64,000 nt of DNA from Streptomyces sp. LS1784 (GTDB lineage: Bacteria > Actinomycetota > Actinomycetes > Streptomycetales > Streptomycetaceae): assembly GCF_020103755.1 (NCBI RefSeq), contig NZ_JAHSQD010000002.1, forward strand, positions 1-64,000, read 5' to 3'. The stretch's first letter is position 1. Each line of letters opens with the position of its first letter. Position numbers and translations under genes: made by a program. Under the pieces are notes generated by a model that ran no database searches, had not been told where the DNA came from, and saw nothing but the letters and a program-made list of their open reading frames with translations. Shown piece after piece: positions 8,552-53,967 of this stretch.

Positions 8552-8575
8552 CACCGGGGCCTGCGAACCCCGGTG
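8552..8575 (+). promoter_or_regulatory. Leader hairpin, copy A (variant loop CCTGCGAA)
   Basis: CACCGGGG at 8552-8559 pairs with CCCCGGTG at 8568-8575 around the loop CCTGCGAA. It lies just before the GGAAGG ribosome binding site of the RecT-like gene. The loop is close to the ACCGCGAA loop of the other copies. Confidence 0.5.
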
Positions 8576-8605
8576 CCGCCACGGAGACAAGGAAGGCACC
8601 CTGAG

Positions 8606-9841
8606 GTGACAGCAGCAGCTCAGCGAACACCCCCCGCGACCGAACCGGTCACCCCGCTGACGGACAACCGCGCGGAGATGACCATCGAGACGGCCGACCA
8701 GGTCCTGGAGATCACCGGCGAGCAGCGGTTCTGGACGAAGGCCCAGCGGGCCGCTCTCGCCGCCATCGGCCTCGCGCACGCCCCGACGCACGACCTCGTC
8801 GCGTTCTTCCACATCTGCAAGTCGACCGGCTTGGACCCCTTCCGCCGCGAGATCTACTACATCCAGCGCAAGCGCAAGGTGCAGGGCCAAGAGGAGCTGT
8901 ACTACACCGCGCAGACCGGCATCGACGGGTTCCGGCACATTGGGCAGCGCACCGGCCGGTTCATCCGCCGCGTCGGCCCGTTCTGGACCGGCCCCGAAGA
9001 CGACCCGACATGGTGGGTTCGGGGCGAGGACGGCATCAACCGCCGTCGCTGGGTTGACGTGTGGCTCCACGACCACCCGCCCGCCGCCGCGATGTGCCGC
9101 ATCGAACACCGCAGCATCGCCGGAGACGAGACGGTCACCCAAGCCGTCGCCCTCTTCTCCGAGTTCGCCGTCGGCAAGGACGAGTGGCAGGACGACCCGC
9201 GCACGGGCAGAGGAGTCAAAACCGGACGGCGCATCCTGACCGGCCTGTGGCCGACCATGGGCGCCCACATGATCGGCAAGGTGGCCGAAGCCCAGGCATG
9301 GCGCATCGCATTCCCCCGCGAGCTGGTGAACATCTACGAGCACACCGAGATGGAGCAAGCCGACGCTGCTCAGCGCGAACTGGAACGCGAGGCAGCAGCG
9401 GCGCGCCGACGCGAGGCCCGATCCCAGGAACAGCCCGGTGCCGTCATCCCCGGCACGGTGGTCAGCGCCTCCACCACCGAGACGGCCGACAGAGCCACCG
9501 GGCCAGGGGCGTCCGAGAGGGAGCCGGACGCGACCTCGGCGGAACCGGCTGACGAGCCCCCCACCGCAGATGAGCTGCGCGAGGAACTGCGCGCCTACGC
9601 CTCCGTGATGGGCAGCACCGTCGCCAAGATCACCTACCGATGGCGGAAGGCGACCGGGACCAGCCTCAACGAGGCAACCGGTGGGCAGCTCGCTGTTCTG
9701 CTCGCCGAGCTGCGCCCCTACGTTCTGTCCGCGCTGGGGTCCCACCCCGAGGCGGCCGAGCACGTCGAGGCAGGCGGCCTGCTGATCCGGCTCGACCCGG
9801 ACGCCACCGTGTGGAGCAGAGAGGACGCCCGCGAGGGCTAG
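8606..9841 (+). CDS. recT: RecT/Bet-family single-strand annealing protein
   Basis: This 411-residue protein contains the RecT/Bet signature FFHICKSTGLDPFRREIYYI followed by the beta segment with YYTAQTGIDGFRHIGQRTG, and a conserved GLWPTMGAHMIGKVAEAQAWR helix. RecT proteins anneal complementary single strands and work with a partner exonuclease in phage recombination. Residues after about 265 are a low-complexity linker and a small helical tail. I chose the GTG at 8606, downstream of GGAAGG. The PD-(D/E)XK nuclease gene follows after a terminator and is its probable partner. Two leader structures precede it, suggesting regulation at the RNA level. Confidence 0.85.
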   Translation: MTAAAQRTPPATEPVTPLTDNRAEMTIETADQVLEITGEQRFWTKAQRAALAAIGLAHAPTHDLVAFFHICKSTGLDPFRREIYYIQRKRKVQGQEELYYTAQTGIDGFRHIGQRTGRFIRRVGPFWTGPEDDPTWWVRGEDGINRRRWVDVWLHDHPPAAAMCRIEHRSIAGDETVTQAVALFSEFAVGKDEWQDDPRTGRGVKTGRRILTGLWPTMGAHMIGKVAEAQAWRIAFPRELVNIYEHTEMEQADAAQRELEREAAAARRREARSQEQPGAVIPGTVVSASTTETADRATGPGASEREPDATSAEPADEPPTADELREELRAYASVMGSTVAKITYRWRKATGTSLNEATGGQLAVLLAELRPYVLSALGSHPEAAEHVEAGGLLIRLDPDATVWSREDAREG

Positions 9842-11635: not shown

Positions 11636-12481
11636 ATGGCAGCCCCCCGCTACATCGACTACATGCCGCTGGACGCGATCCAGCCCGCCGCCCGAAACCC
11701 GAAAGGGCACGACGACGACGGGCTGGACCGCTCCGTCGAACAGTTCGACTTCACCGAGCCCGGCCTGCTGGACGAGCGCACCGACCGGCTGGTGGCCGGC
11801 CACGGCCGCTACGAGACCCTCGTCCGCCGCCGCGACGCGGGCAAGGCAGCCCCGGACGGCGTGGTCGTCACCGACGACGGCACATGGACCGTACCGGTCG
11901 TGCGCGGATGGGCATCCCGCGACGACGCCCACGCCGAGGCCTACCTGATCGCCTCCAACCACCTGACCACCGTCGGCGGCTGGGACGGCGAGGACCTGGC
12001 CGCGATGCTGTCCGACCTGGAGCAGGTCGACCCGGCGCTGTTTGTTGCCACCGGCTTCGACCACGCCCAGATCGACGCCATGCTCGCCGAGGTCACCCCG
12101 GGCGGCCCGGCCGACGACGCGAACGACGCGGACGACGACGGCGCCGACGAGCCCGAGCAGATCAACCGCGGCGACCTCCTGGCCCTGGCCGGCGTCACCG
12201 TCGGGGAGCCCGAGCACCAGGTCGAGACCGGGCAGGTGTGGGAGCTCGGTGACCACCGCCTCGTCGTCGCCGAGGTCTTCGACGGCTGGCCCACATGGAC
12301 CCCGCTGCTCATCGAGGGCAGCCTCTTCCTGCCCTACCCCACTCCGCTCGCCCCCTTCGCGGACCGCGCCGTCGGCCGACGCCTGGTGATGGTGCAGCCC
12401 GAGCGCTACCTGGCCGGTCACCTCCTGGACAAGTGGGCGCGCATCAGCGGGCAGGCGCCCACACTCCGGGACGAGTCGTGA
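11636..12481 (+). CDS. ParB-like protein fused to a remnant methyltransferase-like domain
   Basis: Residues 1-125 form a ParB N-terminal-like domain: DAIQPAARNPKGHD, then LVAGHGRYETLVRRR matching the GHGR motif, then AYLIASNHL. After an acidic linker (about residues 155-180), WELGDHRLVVAE resembles the entry to an adenine methyltransferase domain seen in ParB-methyltransferase fusions. The usual DPPY catalytic motif is absent, and the C-terminal 60 residues are a shortened domain (LVMVQPERYLAGHLLDKWA). It opens the deazaguanine operon, with a GTGA overlap to the first DpdA gene. It may direct or regulate the modification machinery, but this is inference. Confidence 0.7.
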   Translation: MAAPRYIDYMPLDAIQPAARNPKGHDDDGLDRSVEQFDFTEPGLLDERTDRLVAGHGRYETLVRRRDAGKAAPDGVVVTDDGTWTVPVVRGWASRDDAHAEAYLIASNHLTTVGGWDGEDLAAMLSDLEQVDPALFVATGFDHAQIDAMLAEVTPGGPADDANDADDDGADEPEQINRGDLLALAGVTVGEPEHQVETGQVWELGDHRLVVAEVFDGWPTWTPLLIEGSLFLPYPTPLAPFADRAVGRRLVMVQPERYLAGHLLDKWARISGQAPTLRDES

Positions 12482-13377
12482 CGACCGTCTTGCCGACCGC
12501 CGGAGGCACCTTCGACCAGGCGGAGCGGCCCATCTACTTCACCGCGGGCGGAGGCGAGTTCAACGCGGGCCCGCACGTGCTGACGGCCGTCAACGAGCTG
12601 ATGGGCGAAGCCGAGGAGCAGCGGCTGCGCGACCTGCTGGACGCCGGCTGCCGCGTCCTGCTGGACAGCGGCATCTTCTGGCTCACCAACCGGCACAGCC
12701 GGGCCCACGGCGTCTCCATGGACGAAGCGCTCGCGCTGCCGCCCGAGAGCATCGACGGGTTCGAGGAACTGCGCGAGCGGTACGTCTACCTGGCCCGCAC
12801 GTACGGCGACTGGCTGTGGGGCTACATCGAGCTGGACCAGGGCGGCCTGCTGCACAAGCGGGCGCAGCGGGCGGCCCTGCACGACCTCGGCCTGTCGCCG
12901 ATCCCCGTGTACCACCCGCTGGTGGACGGCTGGGACTACTTCGACGAGTTGGCCGGGCGGTACGACCGGATCTGCGTGGGCAACATCGTGCAAGCCTCCG
13001 GCCCGGTGCGGCTGCGACTGCTGCACACGATCTGGGAGCGCCGCCAGAAGTACCCGCATCTGTGGATTCACGCGCTCGGCCTGACCGCCAACGAGTGGTG
13101 CCTGCCGCTGGCCCCGGACTCCTGCGACTCCTCCTCCTGGCTGGCCCCGCTGCGCTGGAACCACCAGCGAATCGAGACCTCGATGCTGCGCCGTGTCGGC
13201 AACCTGCCCGCCGGCTTCCGCTACGCCCCTGGCGACAGCACCTCCTACCAGGCCGCCGCCCGGCTGTGCGCGGACGCCGCGACGGCTCTGGGCACCTGCT
13301 GGAGGCACGCCGCCCACCGCGTCCAGGAGCTGACCGGTGCCCCCGGCGGCACCGTTCTGGAAGGGGTGCAGCGATGA
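12478..13377 (+). CDS. dpdA: DpdA-like DNA guanine transglycosylase, paralogue 1
   Basis: The 299-residue protein is TGT-like. LLDSGIFW (Asp63) corresponds to the DSGG(F/Y) substrate-binding aspartate of tRNA-guanine transglycosylases. GYIELDQGG and HALGLT occupy the positions of later active-site segments. DpdA enzymes exchange guanine in DNA for a 7-deazaguanine base, in phages and in bacterial genomic islands. It is encoded with QueD, QueE and FolE, which make the base. The GTG start overlaps the previous stop. The next gene is a paralogue sharing more than half of its residues. Cysteines near the C-terminus are fewer than in the paralogue. Confidence 0.82.
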   Translation: MTTVLPTAGGTFDQAERPIYFTAGGGEFNAGPHVLTAVNELMGEAEEQRLRDLLDAGCRVLLDSGIFWLTNRHSRAHGVSMDEALALPPESIDGFEELRERYVYLARTYGDWLWGYIELDQGGLLHKRAQRAALHDLGLSPIPVYHPLVDGWDYFDELAGRYDRICVGNIVQASGPVRLRLLHTIWERRQKYPHLWIHALGLTANEWCLPLAPDSCDSSSWLAPLRWNHQRIETSMLRRVGNLPAGFRYAPGDSTSYQAAARLCADAATALGTCWRHAAHRVQELTGAPGGTVLEGVQR

Positions 13378-14312
13378 GCCCGAGCAGCCAGCCCGCCGCG
13401 GTGAAGCGCACCGGCGGTGGCGCGTTCGACCCGGCCGACCGGCACCTGTACTTTGCCGCCGGCGACTCCGAGCACTACCCGCACCACGTGCTGCTGGCCA
13501 CCAACGACCTGCTGACCGCCGGGCACGAACGCAGGCTCGTCGCCCTGCTGGACGCCGGGCACCGCGTCCTGCTGGACTCGGGGATCTTCTGGCTGACCAA
13601 CCAGTACAAGCGGGCCCACCCCGGCATCTCCATGGACGAGGCCCTGCGCCTCGCCCCCGAAGACATCGACGGCTTCGATGACCTGTACGCCCGGTACGTC
13701 GAACTGGTGCAGCGCCACGGCGACCGGTTGTGGGGCTACATCGAGCTCGACCAGGGCGGCCGGGACAACAAGATCCGCACCCGCGCCCGCCTCGAGGGCG
13801 AAGGCCTCGCGCCGATCCCCGTCTACCACCCGCTGGTGGACGGCTGGGACTACTTCGATGAGCTCGCCCAGCAGTACGACCGGATCTGCTTCGGCAACGT
13901 CGTCCAGGCGCCCGCGCCGGTGCGGCTGCGCCTGCTGCACACCCTGTGGGAACGCCACCGCCAGTACCCCGACCTGTGGGTGCACGTCCTCGGCCTGACG
14001 GTCAACGAATGGTGCCTGGCCGTCCCGCCGGACTCCTGCGACTCCTCCACCTGGCTCGGCCCGCTGCGCTGGCCCGACGTACGGATCGACTCCGCGCTGC
14101 TGCGCAAGGTCGGTGTGATCGACCGCGGCTTCGCGTACGACCTCGACCAGCCGGCCCACCCCACCCGCGGCCGTACCGCCTGCTGCCTGATGTGCGCGCA
14201 GACCGTCGATGCCACCACCAGCGTGTGGCGCCTCGCCCGCACCACCCGCGACGAGCTGCTCGGCCAGCCGTCCTACCCGCCCCTCACCGAACCGGAGGCA
14301 CGAACCTCGTGA
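13374..14312 (+). CDS. dpdA: DpdA-like DNA guanine transglycosylase, paralogue 2
   Basis: This 312-residue protein aligns along its length with paralogue 1, sharing VLLDSGIFWLTN, LWGYIELDQGG, IPVYHPLVDGWDYFDELA and CDSS-W-L-PLRW. The C-terminus differs: it has a CCLMC group followed by VWRLARTTRDEL, which may bind zinc as in canonical TGT enzymes. ATG at 13374 overlaps the preceding stop (ATGA). Two adjacent DpdA genes suggest either a heterodimer or two sequence or base specificities. The family assignment is firm; the division of labour is unknown. Confidence 0.82.
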   Translation: MSPSSQPAAVKRTGGGAFDPADRHLYFAAGDSEHYPHHVLLATNDLLTAGHERRLVALLDAGHRVLLDSGIFWLTNQYKRAHPGISMDEALRLAPEDIDGFDDLYARYVELVQRHGDRLWGYIELDQGGRDNKIRTRARLEGEGLAPIPVYHPLVDGWDYFDELAQQYDRICFGNVVQAPAPVRLRLLHTLWERHRQYPDLWVHVLGLTVNEWCLAVPPDSCDSSTWLGPLRWPDVRIDSALLRKVGVIDRGFAYDLDQPAHPTRGRTACCLMCAQTVDATTSVWRLARTTRDELLGQPSYPPLTEPEARTS

Positions 14313-14668
14313 AGTCAACTGTCAGCGTCTGGACCAAGGTCCAGCTGCCCGGATTCCACCACTGGCCCGGCGCGCCCGAGCACCGCTCCTACCTGCGGGC
14401 CCGGCACCGGCACCTGTTCCACATCACGGTCGGTGTCGCCGTCGCGCACGACGAACGCGACACCGAGTTCCACGACCTCGGCGACCTGATCCGCGGCTGG
14501 TGGGGCCCGGGCGCCCGCGAGTGCGGGGCGGCCTCGTGCGAAACCCTGGCCCGCACTCTCGCCGAGCACCTGAGCAGCGTTGGCCTGCGGGTGACGATGA
14601 GCGCGGTGTCCGAGGACGGCGAGGCCGGCGCGGTCGTGCACCTGGCCGAGACGGGGGAGCAGCAGTGA
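14309..14668 (+). CDS. Small T-fold-like protein in the deazaguanine operon
   Basis: The 119-residue product has an aromatic and His-rich core (PGFHHWPGAP, then RHRHLFHITVGVAV and EFHDLGDLI) that loosely resembles the tunnelling-fold proteins of pterin and deazaguanine metabolism. It lacks the QueD Cys/zinc arrangement, so it is probably not a second QueD. Its GTG start overlaps the DpdA2 stop and its end overlaps queD, so it is co-translated with the pathway. Function is not known. A role in base handling or in assembly of the modification complex would fit the context. Confidence 0.6.
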   Translation: MKSTVSVWTKVQLPGFHHWPGAPEHRSYLRARHRHLFHITVGVAVAHDERDTEFHDLGDLIRGWWGPGARECGAASCETLARTLAEHLSSVGLRVTMSAVSEDGEAGAVVHLAETGEQQ

Positions 14669-15141
14669 GCCGCCACAGTGTCACCGTCCGCCACAACTTC
14701 GAGACAGCGCACCGGCTGCCGCACCTCGCCGGGAAGTGCGAGAACCTGCACGGGCACTCCTGGGTGGTCGAGGTCACCGTGTCCGCTCCAGTGCTGGCGG
14801 CCGGCACCGTCGTGGAGTTCGGCGCGTTCAAGCGGGCTCTGCGGGAGTGGATCGACACCTTTCTCGACCACGGCACCATGCTCGGGGCCAGCGACCCGCT
14901 CGCCCCGGTCCTCGCCGGGCAGGGCAGCAAGCTGTTCCGCTTCGGTGCCGAGGATCCGACCGAGCAGGAGCAGCACGCCGCCGGTCTCGGCTGGCCGAGC
15001 GTGGAGGCCGTCGCTGAACTGCTCGGCCGCGTTGCCACGGAGGCCCTGCACACCCTGCCCCGCGCCGCGGGCGCGTACGTCTCCCACGTCGGCGTGTCCG
15101 AGACCGCCGTCAACGCCGCCTCCTGGACGGCGGCCCCGTGA
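14665..15141 (+). CDS. queD: 6-carboxy-5,6,7,8-tetrahydropterin synthase
   Basis: The 158-residue protein has the QueD zinc ligands HNFETAHRLP and ENLHGHSW, with the catalytic Cys in GKCENLHGH. It also has the DHG-TML segment and a SETAVNAASW C-terminal motif carrying the substrate-binding Glu. QueD converts dihydroneopterin triphosphate to 6-carboxytetrahydropterin, step two of 7-deazaguanine synthesis. GTG at 14665 overlaps the upstream stop (GTGA), with GGGGGAG eight bases before. Its end overlaps queE. Confidence 0.92.
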   Translation: MSRHSVTVRHNFETAHRLPHLAGKCENLHGHSWVVEVTVSAPVLAAGTVVEFGAFKRALREWIDTFLDHGTMLGASDPLAPVLAGQGSKLFRFGAEDPTEQEQHAAGLGWPSVEAVAELLGRVATEALHTLPRAAGAYVSHVGVSETAVNAASWTAAP

Positions 15142-15872
15142 GCGCCCTCGTCGTCCCCGACGCCGGCCTGCCCGTCGCCGAGATCTTCGGGCCCACCATC
15201 CAGGGAGAAGGGCCGACCGCCGGCCAGCGGGCCCTGTTCCTGCGCCTGGGCGGCTGCAACCTCAGCTGCGACTGGTGCGACACCCCGTACACCTGGGACG
15301 GCCAGCGGTACAACCTGCGCAAGGAGATCGGCCGCGTCCCGGTCGTCGAACTCGCCGAGTGGGCAGCCGAGCACCCGCACGCGATCGTCGTCATCACCGG
15401 TGGCGAGCCGCTGCTGCACCAGCGCACCGATGCCTGGCGCTCGCTGATGGCCGTGCTGCGCTACACCACCCGCCGCGTCGAGATCGAGACCAACGGCACC
15501 CTCGCGCCGCAGCACGTCAGCCTCGGCGTGCCGCGGCTGACCTTCAACGTCAGCGCCAAGCTGGCGAACTCCGGCATGCCGGAGGAGCGGCGGATCAAGC
15601 CGGACGCCCTGGAGGTCTTCGCCGGCCTCGCCCACCGCGGCCGCGCCCGCTTCAAGTTCGTCGCCGCCGGCCCGGATGACCTCGAGGAGATCGCCGACCT
15701 GGTCGAGCGCTTCCACCTTCCTCCGCACGCGACCTGGGTGATGCCCGAAGGGACCACCGCCGAGCGCACCATCGAGGTCGCCCGGGCCCTGGCCGACGAC
15801 GTGATCGCGCGCAACTGGAACCTGACGATGCGGCAGCACGTGCTGCTGTGGCCTGGAGAACGCAACCGATGA
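15138..15872 (+). CDS. queE: 7-carboxy-7-deazaguanine synthase (radical SAM)
   Basis: The 244-residue protein has EIFGPTIQGEGPTAGQ, typical of QueE, and the radical-SAM cluster CNLSCDWCDTPYTWDG (C-x3-C-x2-C). ITGGEPLLH binds S-adenosylmethionine, and EIETNGT is also present. It converts 6-carboxytetrahydropterin to 7-carboxy-7-deazaguanine (CDG). GTG at 15138 overlaps the queD stop, and the end overlaps folE (ATGA). The next enzyme of the standard pathway, QueC, is not encoded in this window. Confidence 0.93.
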   Translation: MSALVVPDAGLPVAEIFGPTIQGEGPTAGQRALFLRLGGCNLSCDWCDTPYTWDGQRYNLRKEIGRVPVVELAEWAAEHPHAIVVITGGEPLLHQRTDAWRSLMAVLRYTTRRVEIETNGTLAPQHVSLGVPRLTFNVSAKLANSGMPEERRIKPDALEVFAGLAHRGRARFKFVAAGPDDLEEIADLVERFHLPPHATWVMPEGTTAERTIEVARALADDVIARNWNLTMRQHVLLWPGERNR

Positions 15873-16462
15873 CCACCCCCGCCAACACCGCCGACCTGGT
15901 CCGCGCGGCCGAGCACGCCGCCGGTCTGCTCGCCGCCCTCGGCATCCCGTGCGACACCGAGTCCACCGCGGCCACCCCTCGCCGCATGGCCAAGGCCCTC
16001 GCAGAGCTGACCGCCGGCGTGTGCCTGGACCCGGCCCGGCACCTTGCCGTCACCTTCCCCCCGGAAGGAGAACGGGCAGGGCTGATCGCCGCCGTCGACG
16101 TGCCCTTCACCGCGCTCTGCGAGCACCACATGCTGCCGTTCACGGGCCGGGCCACCGTCGCCTACCTGCCGGCCCCCGGAGCCCGCATCGTCGGCCTGTC
16201 CAAGCTCGCCCGCCTCGTCCAGGAGTTCGCGGCCCGCCCGCAGGTCCAGGAACGGCTCGGCCAGCAGGTCGTAGATGCCCTCGGCGCGCACCTCGACATC
16301 CAGGGCGCGGCGTGCCTGATCCGCTCCCAGCACGCCTGCATGACGGCCCGCGGTGCCCGCGCGCACGGGGCCGCGATGGTCACCAGCCACCTGACCGGGG
16401 CCCTCCACGCCGCCCCGGCGCGGCGTGTCGAAGTGCTCGCGCTCGCGCCGCCACCAGCCTGA
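15869..16462 (+). CDS. folE: GTP cyclohydrolase I
   Basis: The 197-residue protein carries the FolE core: VPFTALCEHHMLPFTGRATVAYLP with the zinc Cys/His ligands, IVGLSKLARLVQEFA, and the late SQHACMTARGARA motif with the second zinc Cys. It performs the first step, GTP to dihydroneopterin triphosphate. A phage or island copy raises precursor flux for base modification. ATG at 15869 overlaps the queE stop, so folE is the last gene of the overlapping operon. Confidence 0.93.
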   Translation: MTTPANTADLVRAAEHAAGLLAALGIPCDTESTAATPRRMAKALAELTAGVCLDPARHLAVTFPPEGERAGLIAAVDVPFTALCEHHMLPFTGRATVAYLPAPGARIVGLSKLARLVQEFAARPQVQERLGQQVVDALGAHLDIQGAACLIRSQHACMTARGARAHGAAMVTSHLTGALHAAPARRVEVLALAPPPA

Positions 16463-17430: not shown

Positions 17431-18069
17431 GATGGACGTGTTCCCTTTCTGCTAAATGAGGGCAGCATTGCGGAGCGCGCGGGTCACCCTCGTCACAGGG
17501 TGGCCCGCACCGCGCCCCGATACTAGGGACTTGGCTGACGTCTCGCCAAATCGCGAAAGTCTCTTCACGAATCGTTCCAGTTGAGGACCCCTCCGGGCTT
17601 CTCGGCGCAATGTGCTGATAGCCGTCCAGGGTTGCGCGAGGCGGCGCTCGGCTGGCACAGCTGTCGGTGCGGCCGACACTTCTTGTAACCCGCGCCCGCA
17701 AGGGTTGCTCGGGCCCGTTATGACAGGTGAACGGCCTATGGAGTCGAGGGGCGGTCAGTGAAATGACTTTATGCCGATTCTGCCGGAATGCCACTGGCGA
17801 AAGGATTGTCTAGATGGCTGGACATTTGCGTAGTGGGCGATTTCGCGTGATTGGATTCGACAATCCCCGAACTTGCTTTCAAGTAATTTATATCAACCTC
17901 CCTCGGGAAGTGGCTGCGGCGGCTCTTTGTTTTGTGCGGGGAGTCGGGCGGAAAGGCTTGGCGGAATGCAATTGCCAACTGTCGGCATGTCTGGTTTCTG
18001 CTTTGGGTGAGAGGCTCTCCCGGATGTGTCGAGAAGCCGTTGACCTGGGGTTCGTCATACGTTCGACCG
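17431..18069. other. Gene-free, relatively AT-rich stretch with small inverted repeats
   Basis: No convincing gene lies here. Parts between 17760 and 18050 are markedly less GC-rich than the rest of the element. Imperfect inverted repeats occur at about 17484-17509 (GGGTCACCCT and AGGGTGGCCC) and 17663-17679 (TGTCGG and CCGACA). It may hold promoters or operators for the genes on either side, or part of a packaging or replication site. Confidence 0.4.
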
Positions 18070-18699
18070 GTGAGTAGCCGCCGCGGTCGCCGTCCCGCCC
18101 TCGATCCGGAGGTGGAGAAGCGGCTCTTGGATGCCGTGCGCGCGGGCGTTCCGGTCAGCGATGCGGCGCCGATGGCCGGCATCCACCCGAGCACCGTGTA
18201 CCGGTGGCTGGAACGCGGGGAACAAGAGCAACAACGGCGGGAGGCCGGGCTGCGGGCCCGGTCCGGGGAGCAGGTGTTCTGCGAGTTCCGCGACAGGTTC
18301 ACGCGCGCGCGCAGCGAGGGCAAGGCGCAGCTGGTGCTGCTCGTGCGGAAGGCGGCGAGCGGGGGTCACGTGGTGCGGGAGCGCACCCGGACGGTGCGCG
18401 ACCCGGAGACCGGCGAGCGGGTCGTGCAGGTCGAGCGGGACTTCGCCCAGCCGGACTGGCGCGCGGCGCAGTTCCTCCTCGCGTGCCTGGCGCCGGAGAC
18501 GTTCGGCCGGGCGGCGCAGGCCCGGATCGAGGTCGCGCCGGCGGGCGGAGGCGAGCTGTCGGCGGCCGCGGTGGACCAGGGGCCCGGTGTCGAGCGGTTG
18601 GCGGTCCGGCTGGCCAAGATCCGGCAGGACTTCGCGGCGGAGCTGGAGGAGGACGCCGCGGTGGTCGACGCGGAGCTGGTGGACGGCCCGGAGGGCTGA
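18070..18699 (+). CDS. HTH DNA-binding protein, terminase small-subunit-like
   Basis: The 209-residue protein opens with a basic stretch (RRGRRPALD) and a helix-turn-helix in SDAAPMAGIHPSTVYRWLERG. A helical region follows, with FCEFRDRFTRARSEGKAQL and DWRAAQFLLACLAPETFG. This layout matches small terminase-like or transposase-like DNA-binding proteins of actinophages. No large terminase gene follows. GTG at 18070 has a poor ribosome binding site, and TTG at 17932 would add 46 poor-quality residues. It could instead be a regulator acting on the neighbouring palindromes. Confidence 0.45.
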   Translation: MSSRRGRRPALDPEVEKRLLDAVRAGVPVSDAAPMAGIHPSTVYRWLERGEQEQQRREAGLRARSGEQVFCEFRDRFTRARSEGKAQLVLLVRKAASGGHVVRERTRTVRDPETGERVVQVERDFAQPDWRAAQFLLACLAPETFGRAAQARIEVAPAGGGELSAAAVDQGPGVERLAVRLAKIRQDFAAELEEDAAVVDAELVDGPEG

Positions 18700-28046: not shown

Positions 28047-29084
28047 ATGCGCGACAGCGACGTCATCACCGGCCGGGCCGACCTCGGCGCCATCGACAAC
28101 ACCACCGGCGAGGCAGCCTTCTACTCCCACCGCCAGCCCGCCTGGCACGGCCTCGGCACCGTCACCGAGGAGGCCAAGACCAGCAAGGAGGTGCTGCACC
28201 TCGCCAAGCTGGACTGGGAGGTCGAGAAGCTGCCGATCCTGCCGATGAACAAGGGCAAGCTCGGCAAGAAGATCCCCAACCGCTTCGCCACCGTCCGTAC
28301 CGACACCGGTGACTGGGTCGGCGGCCTCGTCGGCAACACCTGGACCCCGATCCAGAACCGCGACGCCTTCACCTTCCTGGACGAGTTGGTGGGCGGCGGC
28401 CACGTCACCTACGAGACCGCCGGTGCGCTCGACGGCGGCCGGGTCGTCTTCATGTCCGTCAAGTCCCCGAGCATCACCCTCGACCCCGAGGGCGCGGCCG
28501 ACCGCATCGACCTCTACACGCTCTTCGCCAACAGCCACGACGGTCGCTCCGCCGCCGTCGCCGTCGAGACCCCGGTGCGGGCGGTGTGCACCAACACCCT
28601 CGACATGGCCGTCAACGAGGCCCAGCGCGTCTGGAAGGTCCGCCACACCATCGACGCCCTTGACCGGCTGGAGGAGGCCCGGCGCACCCTCGGCTTCACC
28701 GAGCACTACGCCGCAGCCCTGGAGGCCGAGGCCACCGCCCTGTACCAGCAGGCGATGACCAACCAGGAGTTCGACAAGCTGATCACCCGGCTCTGGGGGG
28801 GCCCGAGCAAGGATGCGCGCAAGCACATCGTCGCCGCCCACGAGGAGCGCCGGGACCGGCTGCACCATCTGTTCGCCGAGGCCCACACCCAGGACAACAT
28901 CCGGGGCACCCGCTGGGCCGCCCTCCAGGCCGTCGTGGAGTTCGAGGACTACTTCCGAACCGTCAAGACCCCCGATTCCCTGACCGAGCAGGAGCACCGC
29001 GCCAACCTGGCGATGACCACCCTGCTGCACGACCAGAAGAGCCCGCTCACGGACCCGGCGACGGCCCTGCTCCTCGCGGCGTGA
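28047..29084 (+). CDS. DUF932-like (TIGR03299-type) phage/plasmid protein
   Basis: The 345-residue protein matches the DUF932 phage/plasmid family. AFYSHRQPAWHGLGTVTEE at the start and GDWVGGLVGNTWTPIQNRDAFTFLDELVG are characteristic, and VRAVCTNTLDMAV lies in the centre. Members are common on actinobacterial plasmids and phages, often next to DUF4192 genes as here, and their molecular role is not established. ATG at 28047 follows CAGGAGAAACCCC. A strong terminator follows, so it is a one-gene transcript under the boxed leader. Confidence 0.82.
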   Translation: MRDSDVITGRADLGAIDNTTGEAAFYSHRQPAWHGLGTVTEEAKTSKEVLHLAKLDWEVEKLPILPMNKGKLGKKIPNRFATVRTDTGDWVGGLVGNTWTPIQNRDAFTFLDELVGGGHVTYETAGALDGGRVVFMSVKSPSITLDPEGAADRIDLYTLFANSHDGRSAAVAVETPVRAVCTNTLDMAVNEAQRVWKVRHTIDALDRLEEARRTLGFTEHYAAALEAEATALYQQAMTNQEFDKLITRLWGGPSKDARKHIVAAHEERRDRLHHLFAEAHTQDNIRGTRWAALQAVVEFEDYFRTVKTPDSLTEQEHRANLAMTTLLHDQKSPLTDPATALLLAA

Positions 29085-29089
29085 CCCGG

Positions 29090-29117
29090 CGGCCGGGGGC
29101 CTGCGGGCCCCCGGCCG
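29090..29117 (+). terminator. 12-bp GC hairpin after the DUF932-like gene
   Basis: CGGCCGGGGGCC at 29090-29101 pairs with GGCCCCCGGCCG at 29106-29117 around TGCG. Confidence 0.65.
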
Positions 29118-29191
29118 ACCGCCAGCCGCTCCATGTCACCCCGGCCGCGCCGCCCGCCGGCGCGGCCCCATCCCTGGAACGAGGACCCGCC

Positions 29192-30175
29192 ATGTCCGAC
29201 AGCAACAACACCCCCTTCGTCCTCGAGACGGCCGACCTGGCCGACTTCGTGGCCGGTGCGCTCGGGCGCGAACCGGCCGGGCAGATCGCCGTCGCCGAGC
29301 TCGGCGAGCCCCTGCGGATATACCTCGCGGACATCCCGGAGGAGCGGTACCGCTCGGTGTCCTTCGCCCGGGCGTTCATCGGCGACATCGCCGGGATGCC
29401 GGCCACCAGCCGCGGGCAGCGCGACGTCGCGCTGCTCATCTACGCCCGCGACGGCCACGGCGTCGAGGACGTCGACTCCTACAACGCCCTGTGGCTCAAG
29501 CTCAAGGTCGTGTGTGAGCGGTACGGCCTGACCGTCGTCGAGAGCCAGTTCATCACCCCCACCCGCTGGTGGCCCATGCCGTCCATCGGCGACTCCGGTC
29601 CGGGAAGGCCGCGCGCCGCCGAGCGGCCGACGGCCGACGGGGGCCCCGCGGTCGGGGCGGAGGATGCCGCAGACGTGGTGGCCGACGCCGTGCGTGCCTT
29701 CGCACGCGAGCTGGAAGCCGGCCACGAGGCCGCCAAGCGGAGCCTCAAGCCGCTGCTCGCCGCCGTGCTGACCGGTCGCCGCGACGTCGAGGACCTGACC
29801 GATGAGGAGGCGGCGCGCCTGCTCATCGCGGTCCAGAACGGGGACATCCTGCACACGGCCTCGACGTACTGCGAACCCGAGGAGGTGAAGAGGGCGGCGC
29901 CGCTGTGGTCGCGCGTCGCCCGCCTGTGCGTCGACCCCTATCGCCGCATGGCTGCCGCGCCGCTCACCCTGCTGGGCATCGCGCTGCTGCTCGACGGCGA
30001 CGTGCCGGCGGCCGGAGGCGCGGCACTCCTCGCGCTGGAGGTCAAGCCGGAGGACGAGGAGGCGCAGGTGCTGCTGGGGCTGGTCTCCCGGGCCGAGCTT
30101 GAGCAGGTCATCCGCGTGCCGGTCAGCGCGGCGGAGGCGCTGAGGGCCGCCCTTCGCGAGGACCGCGAGGAGTAG
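29192..30175 (+). CDS. DUF4192 family protein, first of three
   Basis: The 327-residue protein has the DUF4192 layout: an N-terminal alpha/beta region, QRDVALLIYARDGHG in the centre, the ITPTRWWPMP segment, and a C-terminal helical region with LTLLGIALLLDGDVPAAGGAALLALE. Its N-terminus is divergent and lacks the usual LLPFLLGFHP motif seen in the other two copies. ATG follows GAACGAGGACCCGCC. Function of the family is unknown. It ends before a strong terminator. Confidence 0.75.
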   Translation: MSDSNNTPFVLETADLADFVAGALGREPAGQIAVAELGEPLRIYLADIPEERYRSVSFARAFIGDIAGMPATSRGQRDVALLIYARDGHGVEDVDSYNALWLKLKVVCERYGLTVVESQFITPTRWWPMPSIGDSGPGRPRAAERPTADGGPAVGAEDAADVVADAVRAFARELEAGHEAAKRSLKPLLAAVLTGRRDVEDLTDEEAARLLIAVQNGDILHTASTYCEPEEVKRAAPLWSRVARLCVDPYRRMAAAPLTLLGIALLLDGDVPAAGGAALLALEVKPEDEEAQVLLGLVSRAELEQVIRVPVSAAEALRAALREDREE

Positions 30176-30194
30176 CCGGGGGCTGCGGGTGGCG

Positions 30195-30228
30195 CCGGGT
30201 GTCCGTCCCTGCGGGGGCGGGCACCCGG
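30195..30228 (+). terminator. 15-pair hairpin with two G-U pairs
   Basis: Bases 30195-30209 pair with 30214-30228 around TGCG, 19 bases after the DUF4192 stop codon. Confidence 0.6.
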
Positions 30229-30290
30229 GCCCGGCTCCGACTGCGCCCCAAACCGGGGGAGTTGGGGTGTGCCCAACCGGCACGCCCTCA

Positions 30291-30355
30291 AATAGACTGA
30301 GGTCAAGAAAGAAGACGGAAGTCCTTCTGTTGCCACTCCGGACCGCGAATCCGGA
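30291..30355 (+). promoter_or_regulatory. Twin AGGTC-like boxes plus leader hairpin, copy F
   Basis: AGGTC at 30300-30304 and AAGTC at 30319-30323 are 19 bp apart. TCCGG (30337-30341), loop ACCGCGAAT, CCGGA (30351-30355) form the hairpin. Upstream TTGGG-GTGTG-CCCAA is a small inverted repeat partly shared with copy E. Confidence 0.7.
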
Positions 30356-30374
30356 CCAACCCTGATAGGGACCC

Positions 30375-31421
30375 ATGACCGACAAGCTGCTCCTGCTGAA
30401 CGGCCCCGAGGGCCTCGTTCACTTGCTGCCGTTCCTCTTCGACTACCACCCCGAGGACAGTGTGGTTCTGGCCGGCATCACCCCGGCCGGTGTACCGCTC
30501 GGGTTCGTCCGAACCGGACTGCCCGCTGACCCCGCCCACTGGCCGTCCCTGGCCGAAGAACTGCTCGCCCACCAGCGGGACGAGGCCGCGTCGTTCGAGT
30601 TCCCGATCCCCCGGATCGTCGCCTACATCTGCCCCGACCCGGACGACCCCGACTACGGGCAGCAGTCCCGCCTCACCCACCAGCCCATCGCCGACCACCT
30701 GCGCGACGCCTGCCGCCGCCAGGGGCTGGTCCTGAGCGAAGCCGTGTACGTGACCCGCACCCGCTACTGGCCGATGCTGGCGGCCGGTCCCAGCGACGGG
30801 CACCCCATCCCCGAGCCGCCCGCAGAGCTCGACTCGACGGGCCTGCCGCGCAGCAGCGACGTCCTGAAGTCCCTTGCCCCTGTCACCGGGGCGCGGGCCG
30901 CCGCCATGGCCACCACCCTCGACACCGCCGTCCGCGCCATGCACGCCGAGATCCGCTCCGGCGGGCACCAGAGCGTCGTGGACGGCGCGATCAACCTGGT
31001 GACCACCACCATCGCCGAACTGGTCGCCGGGGTCCGGAAGGCCACGGACACCCCTGACGACCTCGCGGCCCGACTGCTGCTCGCCCTCCAGTACGACGAC
31101 GTGCGCAACACCGGGCTCGTGCACTGCGAGGACCACGAGCTGACGGCCGCGAACGAGCTGTGGCTCGCCCTGGCCCATCGCTGCCCCGCCGCCTACGCCG
31201 ACCACGCGGCCGTGCCGCTCGCCCTCCACGCGTTCATGGCGTGGGCGCTCGGCGACGACGCCAGGTCCCGGCTCGCCCTTCAGGCCGCCGAGACGTGCCT
31301 CCCGGACCAGGGCCTGACCCGCCTCCTCCTCGGCATGTTCAACGACGGAGCAGCCTTCGGGCACGTACGCGAGTACCTGCGCGAGCACCGTGCCGCCTGG
31401 GGCATCCCCGTCGCGGGCTGA
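30375..31421 (+). CDS. DUF4192 family protein, second of three
   Basis: The 348-residue product is a typical DUF4192 member: LLPFLFDYHPEDSVVLAGITPAGVPLGFVRTGLP at the start in two segments, then EAVYVTRTRYWPM, and the C-terminal helical repeats AVPLALHAFMAWALGDDARSRLALQAAETCLPD in two blocks. The C-terminal part resembles the tetratricopeptide-like end of family members. It has its own boxed leader, unlike the first copy. The biochemical function is unknown. Confidence 0.82.
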   Translation: MTDKLLLLNGPEGLVHLLPFLFDYHPEDSVVLAGITPAGVPLGFVRTGLPADPAHWPSLAEELLAHQRDEAASFEFPIPRIVAYICPDPDDPDYGQQSRLTHQPIADHLRDACRRQGLVLSEAVYVTRTRYWPMLAAGPSDGHPIPEPPAELDSTGLPRSSDVLKSLAPVTGARAAAMATTLDTAVRAMHAEIRSGGHQSVVDGAINLVTTTIAELVAGVRKATDTPDDLAARLLLALQYDDVRNTGLVHCEDHELTAANELWLALAHRCPAAYADHAAVPLALHAFMAWALGDDARSRLALQAAETCLPDQGLTRLLLGMFNDGAAFGHVREYLREHRAAWGIPVAG

Positions 31422-31430
31422 CCCGCTCCC

Positions 31431-31461
31431 GGCAGGGGCCGCGAGTCGAGCGGCCCCTGCC
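31431..31461 (+). terminator. 12-bp hairpin between DUF4192 genes
   Basis: GGCAGGGGCCGC at 31431-31442 pairs with 31450-31461 around GAGTCGA. It may also act as a leader structure for the third copy, which starts 35 bases later. Confidence 0.55.
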
Positions 31462-31495
31462 CTACCCCCCAACGACCACGAGCGGAGAGATCCCC

Positions 31496-32596
31496 TTGAA
31501 CATCAACTCGGTGCCCGCCTTCGACGTCCGCAGCCCCGCCCAAGCCGTCGAGGCACTGCCCTACCTCCTGAGCTTCCGGCCCGACGGCCCCGACGGCATG
31601 GTGTTCGTCCTCGCCCACGACACCCTGCACAACCGCCCGCTGTTCAGCCAGAAGTTCGAGCTGCCCGGCGGCGAGGACAACCCGAACGAGGCCGCGCACC
31701 ACATGATGCACAGCACGCTGCACCGCCTGGAGAAGTTCGCCACCGGTCCGGCCGCCATCCTGGTGTACCTGTGCGCGCGCCAGCAGGACACGGGCGACGG
31801 CTACGCCGCGATGACCCGGCACCGGGCGGTGGCGGACGCACTCCTGCTGTCCGCCGAGACCCACGGCATCGACACCCTCGCCGCCATGTTCGTCACCCCC
31901 ACCCACTGGTGGGTGTACCACCACGACAACCCCAACTTTCGGCACGAGGGCATGCCCGTCGACGGTCCGGACAACCCGGGCGTGGTCACCATGAACGCCC
32001 GCGCCGTCGGCATCCCCACGCCGCCCAGCCAAGCCGCGATCTCTGCCGCCTTCGAACCCGTCACAGGGGAGGAAGCGGAGGCCCAGCGCGCCGCGATCCT
32101 GCACGCCGTCGGGGAGCGGGCCGACCGCGTGCACGCCAGCAGCTTCGACACCGAGACCGAACGGATCACGGCGATCCTCGACCGGCTGCTGCTCGGCGGC
32201 GGCGACGGCACCCCCCTGGAAAGCCTCACCCCGGGCGAGACGGCAGAGCTGATCGTCGGGCTGCGGCACCGGCCCCTGCGGGACATCGCGATCGGATACA
32301 TCGAACCGGACGAGCTCGCTCGCGCCCGGGAGCTGTGGGCGCTGCTGGCCCGCCGGTGCGCCAGCGCCACCACGACGTTCGTCGCCGCCCCCCTGACCCT
32401 CGCCGCGTTCACCGCCGCCGTGGCCGGGGAGTTCCCGGCCGCACTCGTCGCCCTCGAACGGGCGCGTGCCGCCGACCCGCGCTACCTTCTGGCCCAGCTG
32501 CTGATGGAGCAGATCGTGATGGCGGGCTCCGTGGACCAGATAGCCGACTCAATCCGGCAGGAGCGCGAAGAGCGCCTTCGCGGCCGCGACAGCTGA
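31496..32596 (+). CDS. DUF4192 family protein, third of three
   Basis: The 366-residue protein has ALPYLLSFRPDGPDGMVFVLAHD at the start, AAILVYLCARQQ, MFVTPTHWWVYHH and APLTLAAFTAAVAGEFPAAL, all DUF4192 hallmarks. The TTG start at 31496 follows GGAGAGATCCCC, and no ATG or GTG is nearby in frame. Three consecutive divergent copies suggest diversification within the element. It ends at a GC-extreme gap. Confidence 0.8.
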   Translation: MNINSVPAFDVRSPAQAVEALPYLLSFRPDGPDGMVFVLAHDTLHNRPLFSQKFELPGGEDNPNEAAHHMMHSTLHRLEKFATGPAAILVYLCARQQDTGDGYAAMTRHRAVADALLLSAETHGIDTLAAMFVTPTHWWVYHHDNPNFRHEGMPVDGPDNPGVVTMNARAVGIPTPPSQAAISAAFEPVTGEEAEAQRAAILHAVGERADRVHASSFDTETERITAILDRLLLGGGDGTPLESLTPGETAELIVGLRHRPLRDIAIGYIEPDELARARELWALLARRCASATTTFVAAPLTLAAFTAAVAGEFPAALVALERARAADPRYLLAQLLMEQIVMAGSVDQIADSIRQEREERLRGRDS

Positions 32597-48360: not shown

Positions 48361-48427
48361 ATCGAATGTATACCTTGACGGGTGGTGTAGAGTGTTTACC
48401 GTCCACTTCCGAGAGGGGCGGGGCTCC

Positions 48428-50599
48428 ATGCCGCAAAAGTCAGTGACGCCGCCGTCCGCACAGGTGACGGCCGCAGAGATCTCCCGTATCGCCGGGGTCA
48501 CCCGCGCCACCGTCAGCAACTGGCGGCGGCGCCATGCCGACTTCCCCGCGCCCAGTGGCGGCACCGAGAGCAGCCCGCTCTACGACCTGGGCGCCGTACA
48601 GCAGTGGCTCCGAAGCCGGGGACACACCTCTGCCGCGTCACCCGAGGAGGATCTGCGGACGACGCTGCGGCTTCTCGGGGCGGGCGTGGACGCCGCCCGC
48701 TTCTTCCCACTGTTGGCAGGTGCGGCGCGGCTTCCGGAGCAGGAATCGGGCCAGCTTCTTGAACTGCCCGACGACCGGCTCGCCACAGCTGCCAACAATT
48801 TCCTGGCCGCCCGGACGACATCCGAGACCCGGTCCGTGAAGTACGAGACCGAAGACGCCGGTGTGATCCGCGCGCTCCTGGCGTGTGTACGCGGTCCGGG
48901 TGCGCAGGCCGCGCTGGACGTCCTCGCCGAACGCGACCTCGACGAGAGCGCGGCCAGCGGCACCTACCGCACTCCCCGGGGCCTTGCCGACCTCATGGCA
49001 GGACTGCTGCCCGACACCGTGACCCGCGTGCTCGACCCCGCCTGCGGCAGCGGCACGCTCCTCGCCGCCGCCCGCAGGCGCGGCGCACGTGAGCTGTACG
49101 GACAGGACATCCGTGCGCTTCAAGCGCAGCGGGCCTCAGTGGCCCTTCAACTTGACGAGCCCGCCTCGGCTGCGGGGGCGGAGGAGGTCGTGATCGCCGC
49201 CGGTGACAGCCTGCGGGCCGACGCCTTTCCGGGCCTGACGGTCGATGCCGTGCTGTGCAACCCGCCCTTCGGCGACCGCGACTGGGGCCACGACGAACTC
49301 GCCTACGACCCCAGATGGGCCTACGGCGTGCCCTCACGCTTCGAGTCGGAGCTGGCGTGGGTCCAGCACGCACTGGCACATGTCGAGCCCGGTGGGTACG
49401 TCGTCATGTTGCTGCCGCCCGCCCTCGCCTTCCGCACCTCCGCCCGCCGCATCCGAGCCGAACTCGTCCGCAGCAGGGCCGTGCGCGCCGTCGTCTCCCT
49501 GCCCGCCCGCGTCGCCTACCCGCTGCACATCGCCCTGCACATCTGGATACTGCAGCGGCCCGACCCCGGCGCCGCCGAGCGCACCTCCGTACTCTTCATC
49601 GATGGAGACGGCGAGGGCAGTGTCGGCACTGTCACAAGGAGCGGCTCACCGGGGAGTGCCGCCTTCGACTGGGCCGGCCTCGCGGAGCGCGTGCTGACAC
49701 CATGGAAGGCGTATCGAGACCAGCCCGACGGTTTTACCGACGAGTCGGGGCTGGCCCGCGCCGTCCCGGTGGTCGACCTTCTCGACGATGTCGTGGACCT
49801 CACCCCGGGCCGGCAGGTCCGCACGGCCGCGGCCGATGTCGACCCGGCGGCGCTCGTTGGCAGGATCACCGCGCTGCATGGCCAACTGGGATCGCAACTG
49901 GACGAACTGACCACGCTCAGCGGAGCGGCGAAATGGGAGACGGCCAGTACGTCGATGCGTGAATGGCGTACCGCAACTGTCGCCGACCTCACCCGCGGAG
50001 GCGCCCTCGCGGTTGTCCGGTCGGTGGCGCTTGGCAGCGGACGCGACTCCAAGAGCGGAGGCGTCGTCACTGAGGGAACCGGGTGCCAGCCGGTGCTGAC
50101 GGCACATGATGTCTTGGCCGGCAGCGCGCCCTCGGGCGCGACCGGGGATGCCCATCCGGACATCAGCCAAACGGTCGCGGAGGGAGACGTATTGCTGCGC
50201 GCAGTCTCCAGCCCAAGCTCTACGGGACTGATGACCCGGGTCGCGGACGAGAGCGATGCCGGCGCGCTCCTCGGCTCCGCCCTGCACCTCCTCCGTCCGG
50301 ACCCGGCCCGCCTCGACCCGTGGTTCCTCGCCGGATTCCTCGGCGCAGCCGACAACATCACCGCCGCCTCGACCGGCACCACCATGGTCCAGGTCAACCC
50401 GGCGCGGTTGCGCGTCCCCCTCATGCCGCTGGCGGAGCAACGCCACTACGGCGACGCCTTCCGCCGCGCCTACCAGCTGCGCGTCGCCGCCCATCGCGCC
50501 GCGGCGTTGGCCACGGAGGCCGCGAACGCGGTGACCGCGGGACTCACCGTAGGCGCGCTCCTGCCGCCGATGTCCGGCGACCAGCACCAATCCGGCTGA
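48428..50599 (+). CDS. HTH - N6-adenine methyltransferase - specificity-domain fusion
   Basis: The 723-residue protein begins with a helix-turn-helix (AEISRIAGVTRATVSNWRRR). Residues about 170-450 form a type I-like adenine methyltransferase with LDPACGSG (202-209) and CNPPFGDRDW (277-286). Residues about 535-720 resemble half of a type I specificity subunit. No nuclease domain is present. ATG 48428 follows GAGAGGGGCGGGGCTCC. It heads a plus-strand set that continues with complete HsdM, HsdS and HsdR, so the island carries two adenine methyltransferases. It may modify its own target or regulate the divergent ATPase operon through its HTH. Confidence 0.75.
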   Translation: MPQKSVTPPSAQVTAAEISRIAGVTRATVSNWRRRHADFPAPSGGTESSPLYDLGAVQQWLRSRGHTSAASPEEDLRTTLRLLGAGVDAARFFPLLAGAARLPEQESGQLLELPDDRLATAANNFLAARTTSETRSVKYETEDAGVIRALLACVRGPGAQAALDVLAERDLDESAASGTYRTPRGLADLMAGLLPDTVTRVLDPACGSGTLLAAARRRGARELYGQDIRALQAQRASVALQLDEPASAAGAEEVVIAAGDSLRADAFPGLTVDAVLCNPPFGDRDWGHDELAYDPRWAYGVPSRFESELAWVQHALAHVEPGGYVVMLLPPALAFRTSARRIRAELVRSRAVRAVVSLPARVAYPLHIALHIWILQRPDPGAAERTSVLFIDGDGEGSVGTVTRSGSPGSAAFDWAGLAERVLTPWKAYRDQPDGFTDESGLARAVPVVDLLDDVVDLTPGRQVRTAAADVDPAALVGRITALHGQLGSQLDELTTLSGAAKWETASTSMREWRTATVADLTRGGALAVVRSVALGSGRDSKSGGVVTEGTGCQPVLTAHDVLAGSAPSGATGDAHPDISQTVAEGDVLLRAVSSPSSTGLMTRVADESDAGALLGSALHLLRPDPARLDPWFLAGFLGAADNITAASTGTTMVQVNPARLRVPLMPLAEQRHYGDAFRRAYQLRVAAHRAAALATEAANAVTAGLTVGALLPPMSGDQHQSG

Positions 50600-50687
50600 A
50601 CTGCCTCGGCCGGCACGACACATCGACCAGACTGCATACGTTCCGCTGAGAGTGGCGGACGACCCGAGAGAAGACCGGGGAAACCCT

Positions 50688-52679
50688 TTGAACAGCAGCA
50701 AGCATACGGAGCTGGCGAACCACGCCTGGTCCGTCGCCGACCTCCTGCGCGGTGACTACAAGCAGTCCGACTACGGAAAGGTGATCCTGCCCTTCACCGT
50801 CCTGCGGCGGCTGGAATGCGTACTCGCGCCGACCCGTGAGAAGGTCGCGGAGCGGGCCGCCGAGCTCGCTGGCCAGGAGCTGGACGAGGACCGCTTCCTG
50901 CGCAAGGCCTCCGGCCACTCCTTCTACAACAGGAGCTCCCTCACCCTGCGGAAGATCGCCGGCGACCCGCAGAACGCCGCGAAAAACCTGCAGCTCTACG
51001 TGGCCGCGTTCTCGGACAACGCCCGCGAGGTCCTGGAGAAGTACGAGTTCAACCAGCAGATCCGCAAGCTGGACAGCGCGAAGCTGATCTACCAGGTCAT
51101 CGGCCGGTTCACCGACCTCGACCTGCGCCCCGAGGTCGTGTCCAACCACAACATGGGCTACATCTTCGAGGAGCTCATCCGACGCTTCGCGGAGCAGTCG
51201 AACGAAACCGCGGGTGAGCACTTCACCCCGCGCGAGGTCATCAAGCTGATGGTCAACCTGTTGGTGGGGCCCGACGCGGACGCACTGAGCCTGCCCGGCG
51301 TGGTGCGTACCGTACTCGACCCAGCCTGCGGCACCGGCGGCATGCTCAGCGCCGCCGAGGAGCACATCACCGCGCTCAACCCTGGCGCCGAGGTGGAGGC
51401 CTACGGTCAGGAGCTCAACCCCGAGTCCTGGGCCATCTGCCGGTCCGACCTGATGATCAAGGGCCAGGACCCCGACAACATCGCCTTCGGCAACTCCTTC
51501 AGCGACGACGGCCACAGGCGCGAGAAGTTCGACTACCTCCTCGCCAACCCACCGTTCGGTGTGGAGTGGAAGAAGGTCAAGGACGAGGTCGAGCACGAAT
51601 TCGAGACCCTCGGCGACTCTGGGCGCTTTGGCGCCGGTCTGCCGCGGATCAACGACGGTTCGCTGCTCTTCCTGCAACACATGCTCTCGAAGATGAAGCC
51701 GGTCGACGTCAACGGAGGCGGCGGCTCCCGGGTCGCTATCGTCTTCAACGGCTCACCGCTCTTCTCGGGTGCGGCCGAGTCCGGCGAGTCCAACATCCGC
51801 CGGTGGATCCTGGAGAACGACTGGCTGGAGGCAATCGTCGCCCTGCCTGACCAACTCTTCTACAACACCGCTATCTCTACGTACTTTTGGATCCTCACCA
51901 ACCGCAAGTCCGCCGACCATAAGGGCAAGGTCGTGCTGCTGGACGCGCGGGACTACTGGGTGAAGATGCGGAAGTCACTGGGCGACAAGCGCAAGGAGCT
52001 GAGCGAGCAGCACATTCGCGAGATCACCCGACTTTACGGGGAGGCCCTGCAGGCCGCCCGTGATCCGGAGCATCCTCTGCACGGCAAGGTCAAGGTCTTC
52101 AAGAACGAGGACTTCGGCTACCAGCGCATCACCGTCGACCGACCGCTCAAGCTGCGGTTCGAGGTCACGGAGGAGACCCTGACGGCACTGGCCGAGGCCA
52201 AGCCCGTCCAGAAGCTGGAGCACACAGACGACTTCGTCGCAGCGGTGCGAGTGCTGGATAGCCAGAGCTGGCAAACGAAGTCCGAGGCGTTCGTCGCACT
52301 CAAGGACGCGGTCGTAGCAGCCGGCCTGCTTTGGCCGACGAGCGCATCGTTCGCGAAGGCCGCGCGGGACGCAATCGGCGTCCGGGACACGGACGGCGAG
52401 GTCCAGATGATCAAGGGCTCACCGGAACCGGACACCGACCTGCGTGACTTCGAGAACGTTCCTCTGGACGAGGACGTTGAGGGCTACCTCGAGCGCGAGG
52501 TGCTGCCATACGTGCCGGATGCGTGGATCGACCACAGCAAGACGAAGATCGGGTACGAGATCCCGTTCACCCGGCACTTCTACGTTTACAAACCACCGAG
52601 GCCGCTCGCCGAGATCGACGCGGAACTGAAGTCACTGGAGGCCGAGATCCAGACGCTGATTGGGGAGGTGACGGAATGA
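50688..52679 (+). CDS. hsdM: Type I restriction-modification methyltransferase subunit
   Basis: The 663-residue protein has the HsdM N-terminal helical domain (HTELANHAWSVADLLRGDYK), AdoMet motif LDPACGTGG (Asp at 211) and the catalytic NPPFG (287-291). It methylates adenine at the site chosen by HsdS. I chose TTG at 50688 after CCGGGGAAACCCT because HsdM proteins normally start at that point; a GTG at 50652 would add 12 residues. Its end overlaps hsdS (ATGA). Confidence 0.93.
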   Translation: MNSSKHTELANHAWSVADLLRGDYKQSDYGKVILPFTVLRRLECVLAPTREKVAERAAELAGQELDEDRFLRKASGHSFYNRSSLTLRKIAGDPQNAAKNLQLYVAAFSDNAREVLEKYEFNQQIRKLDSAKLIYQVIGRFTDLDLRPEVVSNHNMGYIFEELIRRFAEQSNETAGEHFTPREVIKLMVNLLVGPDADALSLPGVVRTVLDPACGTGGMLSAAEEHITALNPGAEVEAYGQELNPESWAICRSDLMIKGQDPDNIAFGNSFSDDGHRREKFDYLLANPPFGVEWKKVKDEVEHEFETLGDSGRFGAGLPRINDGSLLFLQHMLSKMKPVDVNGGGGSRVAIVFNGSPLFSGAAESGESNIRRWILENDWLEAIVALPDQLFYNTAISTYFWILTNRKSADHKGKVVLLDARDYWVKMRKSLGDKRKELSEQHIREITRLYGEALQAARDPEHPLHGKVKVFKNEDFGYQRITVDRPLKLRFEVTEETLTALAEAKPVQKLEHTDDFVAAVRVLDSQSWQTKSEAFVALKDAVVAAGLLWPTSASFAKAARDAIGVRDTDGEVQMIKGSPEPDTDLRDFENVPLDEDVEGYLEREVLPYVPDAWIDHSKTKIGYEIPFTRHFYVYKPPRPLAEIDAELKSLEAEIQTLIGEVTE

Positions 52680-53962: not shown

Positions 53963-53967
53963 ACGCC

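Follow-up and report, generated by a model that had tools for sequence, protein, structure and literature searches.

The window analyzed here, a stretch of 64,000 nucleotides, carries seven consecutive genes on the + strand, read directly from the DNA between positions 11636 and 16462: a ParB-like gene, dpdA-a, dpdA-b, a small gene that we call X, queD, queE and folE. Every junction from the ParB-like gene to folE is a four-base overlap (GTGA or ATGA) in which the start codon lies on the preceding stop. Tape measure and tail genes lie to the left of this operon, genes for a RecT-like annealing protein (8573..9841, + strand; PF03837, phrog_2780) and a Cas4-like phage exonuclease (9920..11191, + strand; phrog_1674, phrog_1990) lie upstream, and those for a terminase small subunit (17932..18699, + strand; phrog_4102, 1e-18) and an endolysin lie downstream. 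The operon is embedded among phage genes and therefore belongs to a prophage; the actinomycete assembly that contains it measures 9.56 Mb. On the right, beyond the prophage genes, stand three consecutive DUF4192 genes (29081-32596), and type I restriction-modification genes (N6-methylase-like, HsdM and HsdR; 48392-57174) follow the prophage; the SMC-like, protein kinase, AIPR and CHAT genes beside them give this region the appearance of a defence island.

The first gene of the operon (11636..12481) encodes a ParB-like protein of 281 amino acids with matches to phrog_498, phrog_620 and phrog_723. It is followed by dpdA-a (12478..13377, GTG start, 299 amino acids; phrog_887, 5e-15) and its tandem paralogue dpdA-b (13374..14312, ATG start, 312 amino acids; phrog_887, 8e-18), both of the DNA guanine transglycosylase family, and by gene X (14309..14668, GTG start, 119 amino acids; phrog_17812, a family annotated as 'hypothetical protein'), which encodes a divergent protein with a predicted QueD fold. 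The last three genes are queD, encoding CPH4 synthase with its canonical Cys (GKCENLHGH) and Asp-His (LDH) motifs (14665..15141, GTG start; PF01242, 2e-22), queE, encoding the radical SAM enzyme CDG synthase with a CNLSCDWC motif (15138..15872, GTG start; PF04055, 1.6e-10; phrog_2076, 1.5e-60), and folE, encoding GTP cyclohydrolase I (15869..16462, ATG start; PF01227, 3e-51). The assignments of QueD, QueE and FolE are secure by both Pfam and PHROGs. An earlier note on this DNA had described folE, queD, queE and two dpdA genes as a chain of four-base overlaps; its coordinates, 12478-16462, are exact, and the chain gains X and the ParB-like gene, which the note had omitted. A DpdA-type transglycosylase encoded together with FolE, QueD and QueE is characteristic of the phage 7-deazaguanine DNA-modification systems, and both the enzyme families and the gene order support the note's view of the locus as an operon of this kind. 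The seven-gene operon probably replaces some guanines with a 7-deazaguanine base. FolE, QueD and QueE would convert GTP to 7-carboxy-7-deazaguanine (CDG), and a DpdA protein would exchange guanine in phage DNA for the modified base.

Neither DpdA copy has a match in Pfam, and both match a PHROG family annotated as 'queuine tRNA-ribosyltransferase' (phrog_887). The AlphaFold model of DpdA-a (pLDDT 89) has the TGT fold, with a Z score of 17.5 to 1iq8_A over 258 residues and an rmsd of 3.5; a sequence search of PDB with the DpdA profile gave no match, whereas the fold search did. In DpdA-a the residues D63SG, H146, H198 and D217SS are all invariant in the family, and DpdA-b carries D68SG, H204 and D223SS; the correspondence with the catalytic Asp residues of TGT is assigned by motif. 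The family-invariant His aligns with His196 of the 9g-type DpdA, a residue noted in PMC6884629, so that the TGT fold (in the model of copy a), the DSG and D-S-S motifs and the conserved His that mark a 9g-type DpdA are found in both copies. We consider it barely credible that these transglycosylases act on tRNA or other RNA and not on DNA. The TGT fold would suit such a target, as would a host without its own Tgt (none was found in the assembly by a family search), whose tRNA could be free for modification, but the best profile relatives of both copies are phage DpdA proteins, the invariant His has its counterpart in one of them, and the surrounding genes belong to phage DNA metabolism and include one for a ParB-like DNA-binding partner.

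DpdA-a and DpdA-b share 59% identity. An alignment of 46 sequences of the family contains 44 invariant residues, and both copies keep all of them, on which ground we reject the possibility that one copy is dead; the earlier note had allowed for an inactive member of the pair, and both paralogues look intact. T130 and E135, which are 80-90% conserved elsewhere, are changed in copy a only. Each copy forms its own clade, and the dN/dS ratios between orthologues range from 0.11 to 0.37 for both copies, with the caveat that high GC content may bias dS. Judging from these comparisons, both copies appear to be under purifying selection and to be catalytically intact. This DpdA is carried by 7 of 70 genomes of the genus, and all seven carriers have exactly the tandem pair and one X; full QueC is present in none of the other six. 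Most other cassettes have a single DpdA. It is improbable, in our judgment, that the element is defective or the modification silent in this host, with one DpdA redundant and no guanine replaced. Prophage genes can decay, but here all seven are open and joined by four-base coupling, the dN/dS values of both DpdA copies lie far below 1, every congeneric carrier found retains the tandem pair, and dozens of other viruses have this cassette as well.

The pair is probably the product of an old tandem duplication. Because both copies are intact and retained, it is also probable that they form a heterodimer or act in different sequence contexts. The 44 fixed differences between the copies lie mostly near residues 18-48, 99-109 and 220-239 and at the C-terminus, and this location suggests altered contacts with a partner or with DNA. 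When known phages were searched by tblastn at 1e-5, DpdA-a gave no match and DpdA-b only weak ones; therefore this DpdA subfamily is poorly represented among isolated phages. An unrelated viral contig (L099:1-1277) also encodes two tandem DpdA proteins, 72% identical over the 121 residues in which they overlap, apparently as the result of an independent duplication.

The ParB-like protein combines a domain resembling the ParB N-terminal domain with a conserved C-terminal piece (VQPd.Y.AGh.lDk...G), and its relatives likewise show weak ParB_N matches and C-terminal conservation. By eye, the C-terminus looks like a degenerate methyltransferase remnant. In 74 of 79 cassettes a gene of this kind precedes DpdA and ends no more than 150 nt before it. 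Our guess is that it serves as a DNA-targeting partner of DpdA, and it would probably help DpdA to find or bind DNA.

QueC or Gat-QueC, which is required for the preQ0 or archaeosine pathway of the 9g/Rosebush type, is absent from both the phage and the host. A profile search with PF06508 identified no queC in the window or in the 9.56-Mb host assembly, which is 99.99% complete, so the earlier observation that no QueC was visible holds for the window and extends to the entire assembly. The only host match was weak (E 2e-4), covered profile positions 1-67 only and belongs to GMP synthase; those of the comparably weak matches in relatives that were inspected proved to be GMP or asparagine synthases. 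The operon queD is the only PTPS match of the genome, leaving no second QueD in the host, and no enzyme set for synthesis of preQ0 by the known route was found in the assembly. Since queC is absent from element and host, preQ0 is an unlikely product.

The gene found between dpdA-b and queD offers a candidate for what happens to CDG instead. X aligns over its full length with the QueD proteins of the same cassettes in a profile comparison (HHalign 95%, E 2e-8), and the best structural match of its AlphaFold model (pLDDT 90.9) is E. coli QueD (4ntk; Z 14.0, rmsd 2.1 over 111 residues, 16% identity). The model predicts a T-fold with QueD topology and the zinc His triad: H17, H33 and H35 fall at the QueD zinc-binding positions, from which we infer that X binds zinc, and a C-terminal Glu (E102) is also kept. 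At the aligned positions, X lacks the Cys and the Asp-His pair that are catalytic in CPH4 synthase. The X family has 19 invariant residues, and R26, R50, E53, H55, C77 and D103 were gained relative to QueD. As judged from these residues, X is a QueD-fold protein and not a CPH4 synthase; the operon encodes a canonical QueD as well, and X is therefore a paralogue with a reworked site.

Position in the slot of QueC would fit a role of X as a QueC replacement of different fold that yields ADG or preQ0 by a route of its own, in which case the DNA would carry dADG or dPreQ0. We regard this as quite improbable, because X is a protein of 119 amino acids with a QueD fold and no ATP-binding PP-loop motif, while both amidation and nitrile formation by QueC need ATP (PMC13329287). 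An amide or a nitrile is not a likely product of a QueD-fold protein that lacks an ATP site.

In order to compare the distribution of X with that of QueC, we collected loci from scans of viral contigs and genomes using DpdA and X, together with phage records, which gave 102 non-redundant loci, and QueC was sought in the whole records of DpdA cassettes. X is present in 86 of the 102 loci, and FolE, QueD or QueE is encoded nearby in 83 of these 86. True QueC is found in none of the 68 X-bearing DpdA cassettes as compared with 7 of the 11 X-less ones (Fisher p 1e-7, with kinship ignored); the seven include JenP1, an outgroup chosen deliberately, and leaving it out changes the X-less figure to 6 of 10. 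Moreover, the cassettes with X are not mutually independent, and those with QueC may correspond to about four swaps. Four X-less cassettes, some of them fragments, also have no QueC and carry another slot protein. Searches of whole records showed no QueC above the cut-off in phiST, ACP17 and nine other X-bearing phages, while Xanthomonas phage X1 has one partial, sub-threshold QueC match; QueC is present in phi38:2 and Mufasa8. The mutual exclusion of X and QueC and their shared slot indicate that X most likely takes over from QueC at the CDG step. As X alternates with QueC, the inserted base is likelier to be a product made by X from CDG than CDG itself. The proposal of the earlier note that the base is CDG or a derivative is accordingly upheld in its setting aside of preQ0, and of its two options the derivative is the likelier.

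The other option, insertion of CDG itself to give dCDG, with X as a partner of DpdA that binds or delivers CDG, is in our opinion unlikely but deserves to be weighed. It agrees with the absence of QueC from element and host and with the position of X, which lies directly downstream of DpdA in 63 of 69 cassettes. Moreover, X keeps the QueD-like zinc site and pterin-type pocket and has lost the catalytic residues of CPH4 synthase, which could mean binding without catalysis. On the other hand, the 19 invariant residues, with R, E, H, C and D positions unlike those of QueD among them, argue for a reworked active site, and X is strictly exchanged with QueC, an enzyme that transforms CDG.

We therefore favor, as a moderately probable reading, a prophage operon that stops short of preQ0, in which X acts on CDG, likely giving 7-deazaguanine, and DpdA inserts the product. 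With QueC absent, X would most likely remove the carboxylate of CDG, and the exchange of guanine for 7-deazaguanine would yield 2'-deoxy-7-deazaguanosine (dDG) in phage DNA; the replacement of guanine probably serves restriction evasion. A CDG decarboxylase giving dDG, and not dCDG or dPreQ0, is our best guess for X, although its role might also be to modify CDG otherwise, to carry it or to aid its insertion. Both dDG and dCDG have reportedly been found in phage DNA, in work by Cui et al. in 2023 that is also said to have predicted a CDG decarboxylase, DpdL. X may correspond to DpdL: DpdL was reportedly proposed for dDG-making phages without QueC, the distribution of X fits this, and X occurs in phages of the kind reportedly studied in that work. 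A more elaborate version, possible but clearly less probable, is that the two DpdA proteins constitute an obligate two-part transglycosylase, either as a heterodimer or with different contexts or bases for each, which is guided by the ParB-like protein with its degenerate methyltransferase tail and inserts plain 7-deazaguanine, the product of X as a zinc decarboxylase of QueD fold that took the place of QueC.

The pathway is of a known kind, and its variant features are the QueD-fold protein that replaces QueC and the stably kept DpdA pair. Genes gp1-gp6 of Mycobacterium phage Quesadilla (NC_051584.1) have the same order of ParB-like gene, DpdA, slot gene, QueD, QueE and FolE with short overlaps, but there the slot gene is QueC and DpdA is single. 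FolE, QueD, QueE and a DpdA also occur in Enterobacteria phage 9g and in Rosebush (PMC6884629), and the DpdA of the 9g-like phage JenP1 has the conserved His and matches our DpdA profile. In contrast to our operon, 9g and Rosebush have QueC or Gat-QueC and carry dG+ or dPreQ0 as the inserted base (PMC6884629); neither X nor a second dpdA has been described for them. Cellulophaga phage phiST and Acidovorax phage ACP17 resemble our operon in having FolE, QueD, QueE and an X homologue (36-37% identity) and no QueC, and differ from it in gene order and in that no DpdA was found by our profile in the stretches examined. Outside of phages, FolE, QueD and QueE homologues of the tubercidin cluster TubA-F make CDG, which is subsequently decarboxylated (PMC6112128); however, that decarboxylase belongs to the UbiD family and acts after ribosylation, whereas X has a predicted QueD fold.

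The exclusion of X and QueC offers a sequence rule for predicting which phages make CDG-derived and which make preQ0-derived bases, and it also suggests that a step of poorly known chemistry is catalysed by a protein with the QueD fold. Eukaryotic tRNA-guanine transglycosylase is split into specialised subunits, and whether DNA guanine transglycosylases can split in this way as well is a question for which the tandem DpdA pair provides a natural test. Because stable pairs occur in an actinomycete genus that can be cultivated, the question is directly accessible to experiment.

Mycobacterium phage Bipper (gp1-gp7; KU728633) also encodes a ParB-like protein, a DpdA, a small slot protein, QueD, QueE and FolE and no QueC, and it could carry CDG (PMC6884629). 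It differs from our operon in its single, much diverged DpdA (42.5 bits with our profile) and in its slot protein gp4, which belongs to another family with no detectable match to X; the idea that gp4 is a divergent X received no support from HMM and profile-profile comparisons. This second family of small slot proteins follows DpdA in several X-less cassettes (L015:10921-11325, L016, L043, L163, L172 and L070:2047-2472, the last being Bipper gp4) and is characterized by the motif GPI.IFF.N.N..MGL..H.H...TNED.A...IGHDd..T.Y. QueC is encoded elsewhere on the L015 contig and is not found in Bipper; the family may represent another enzyme of the deazaguanine pathway. In phiST (L002:7418-8005) a gene for a MazG-like pyrophosphatase precedes X and overlaps FolE, and its product perhaps acts on dGTP or pterin triphosphates.
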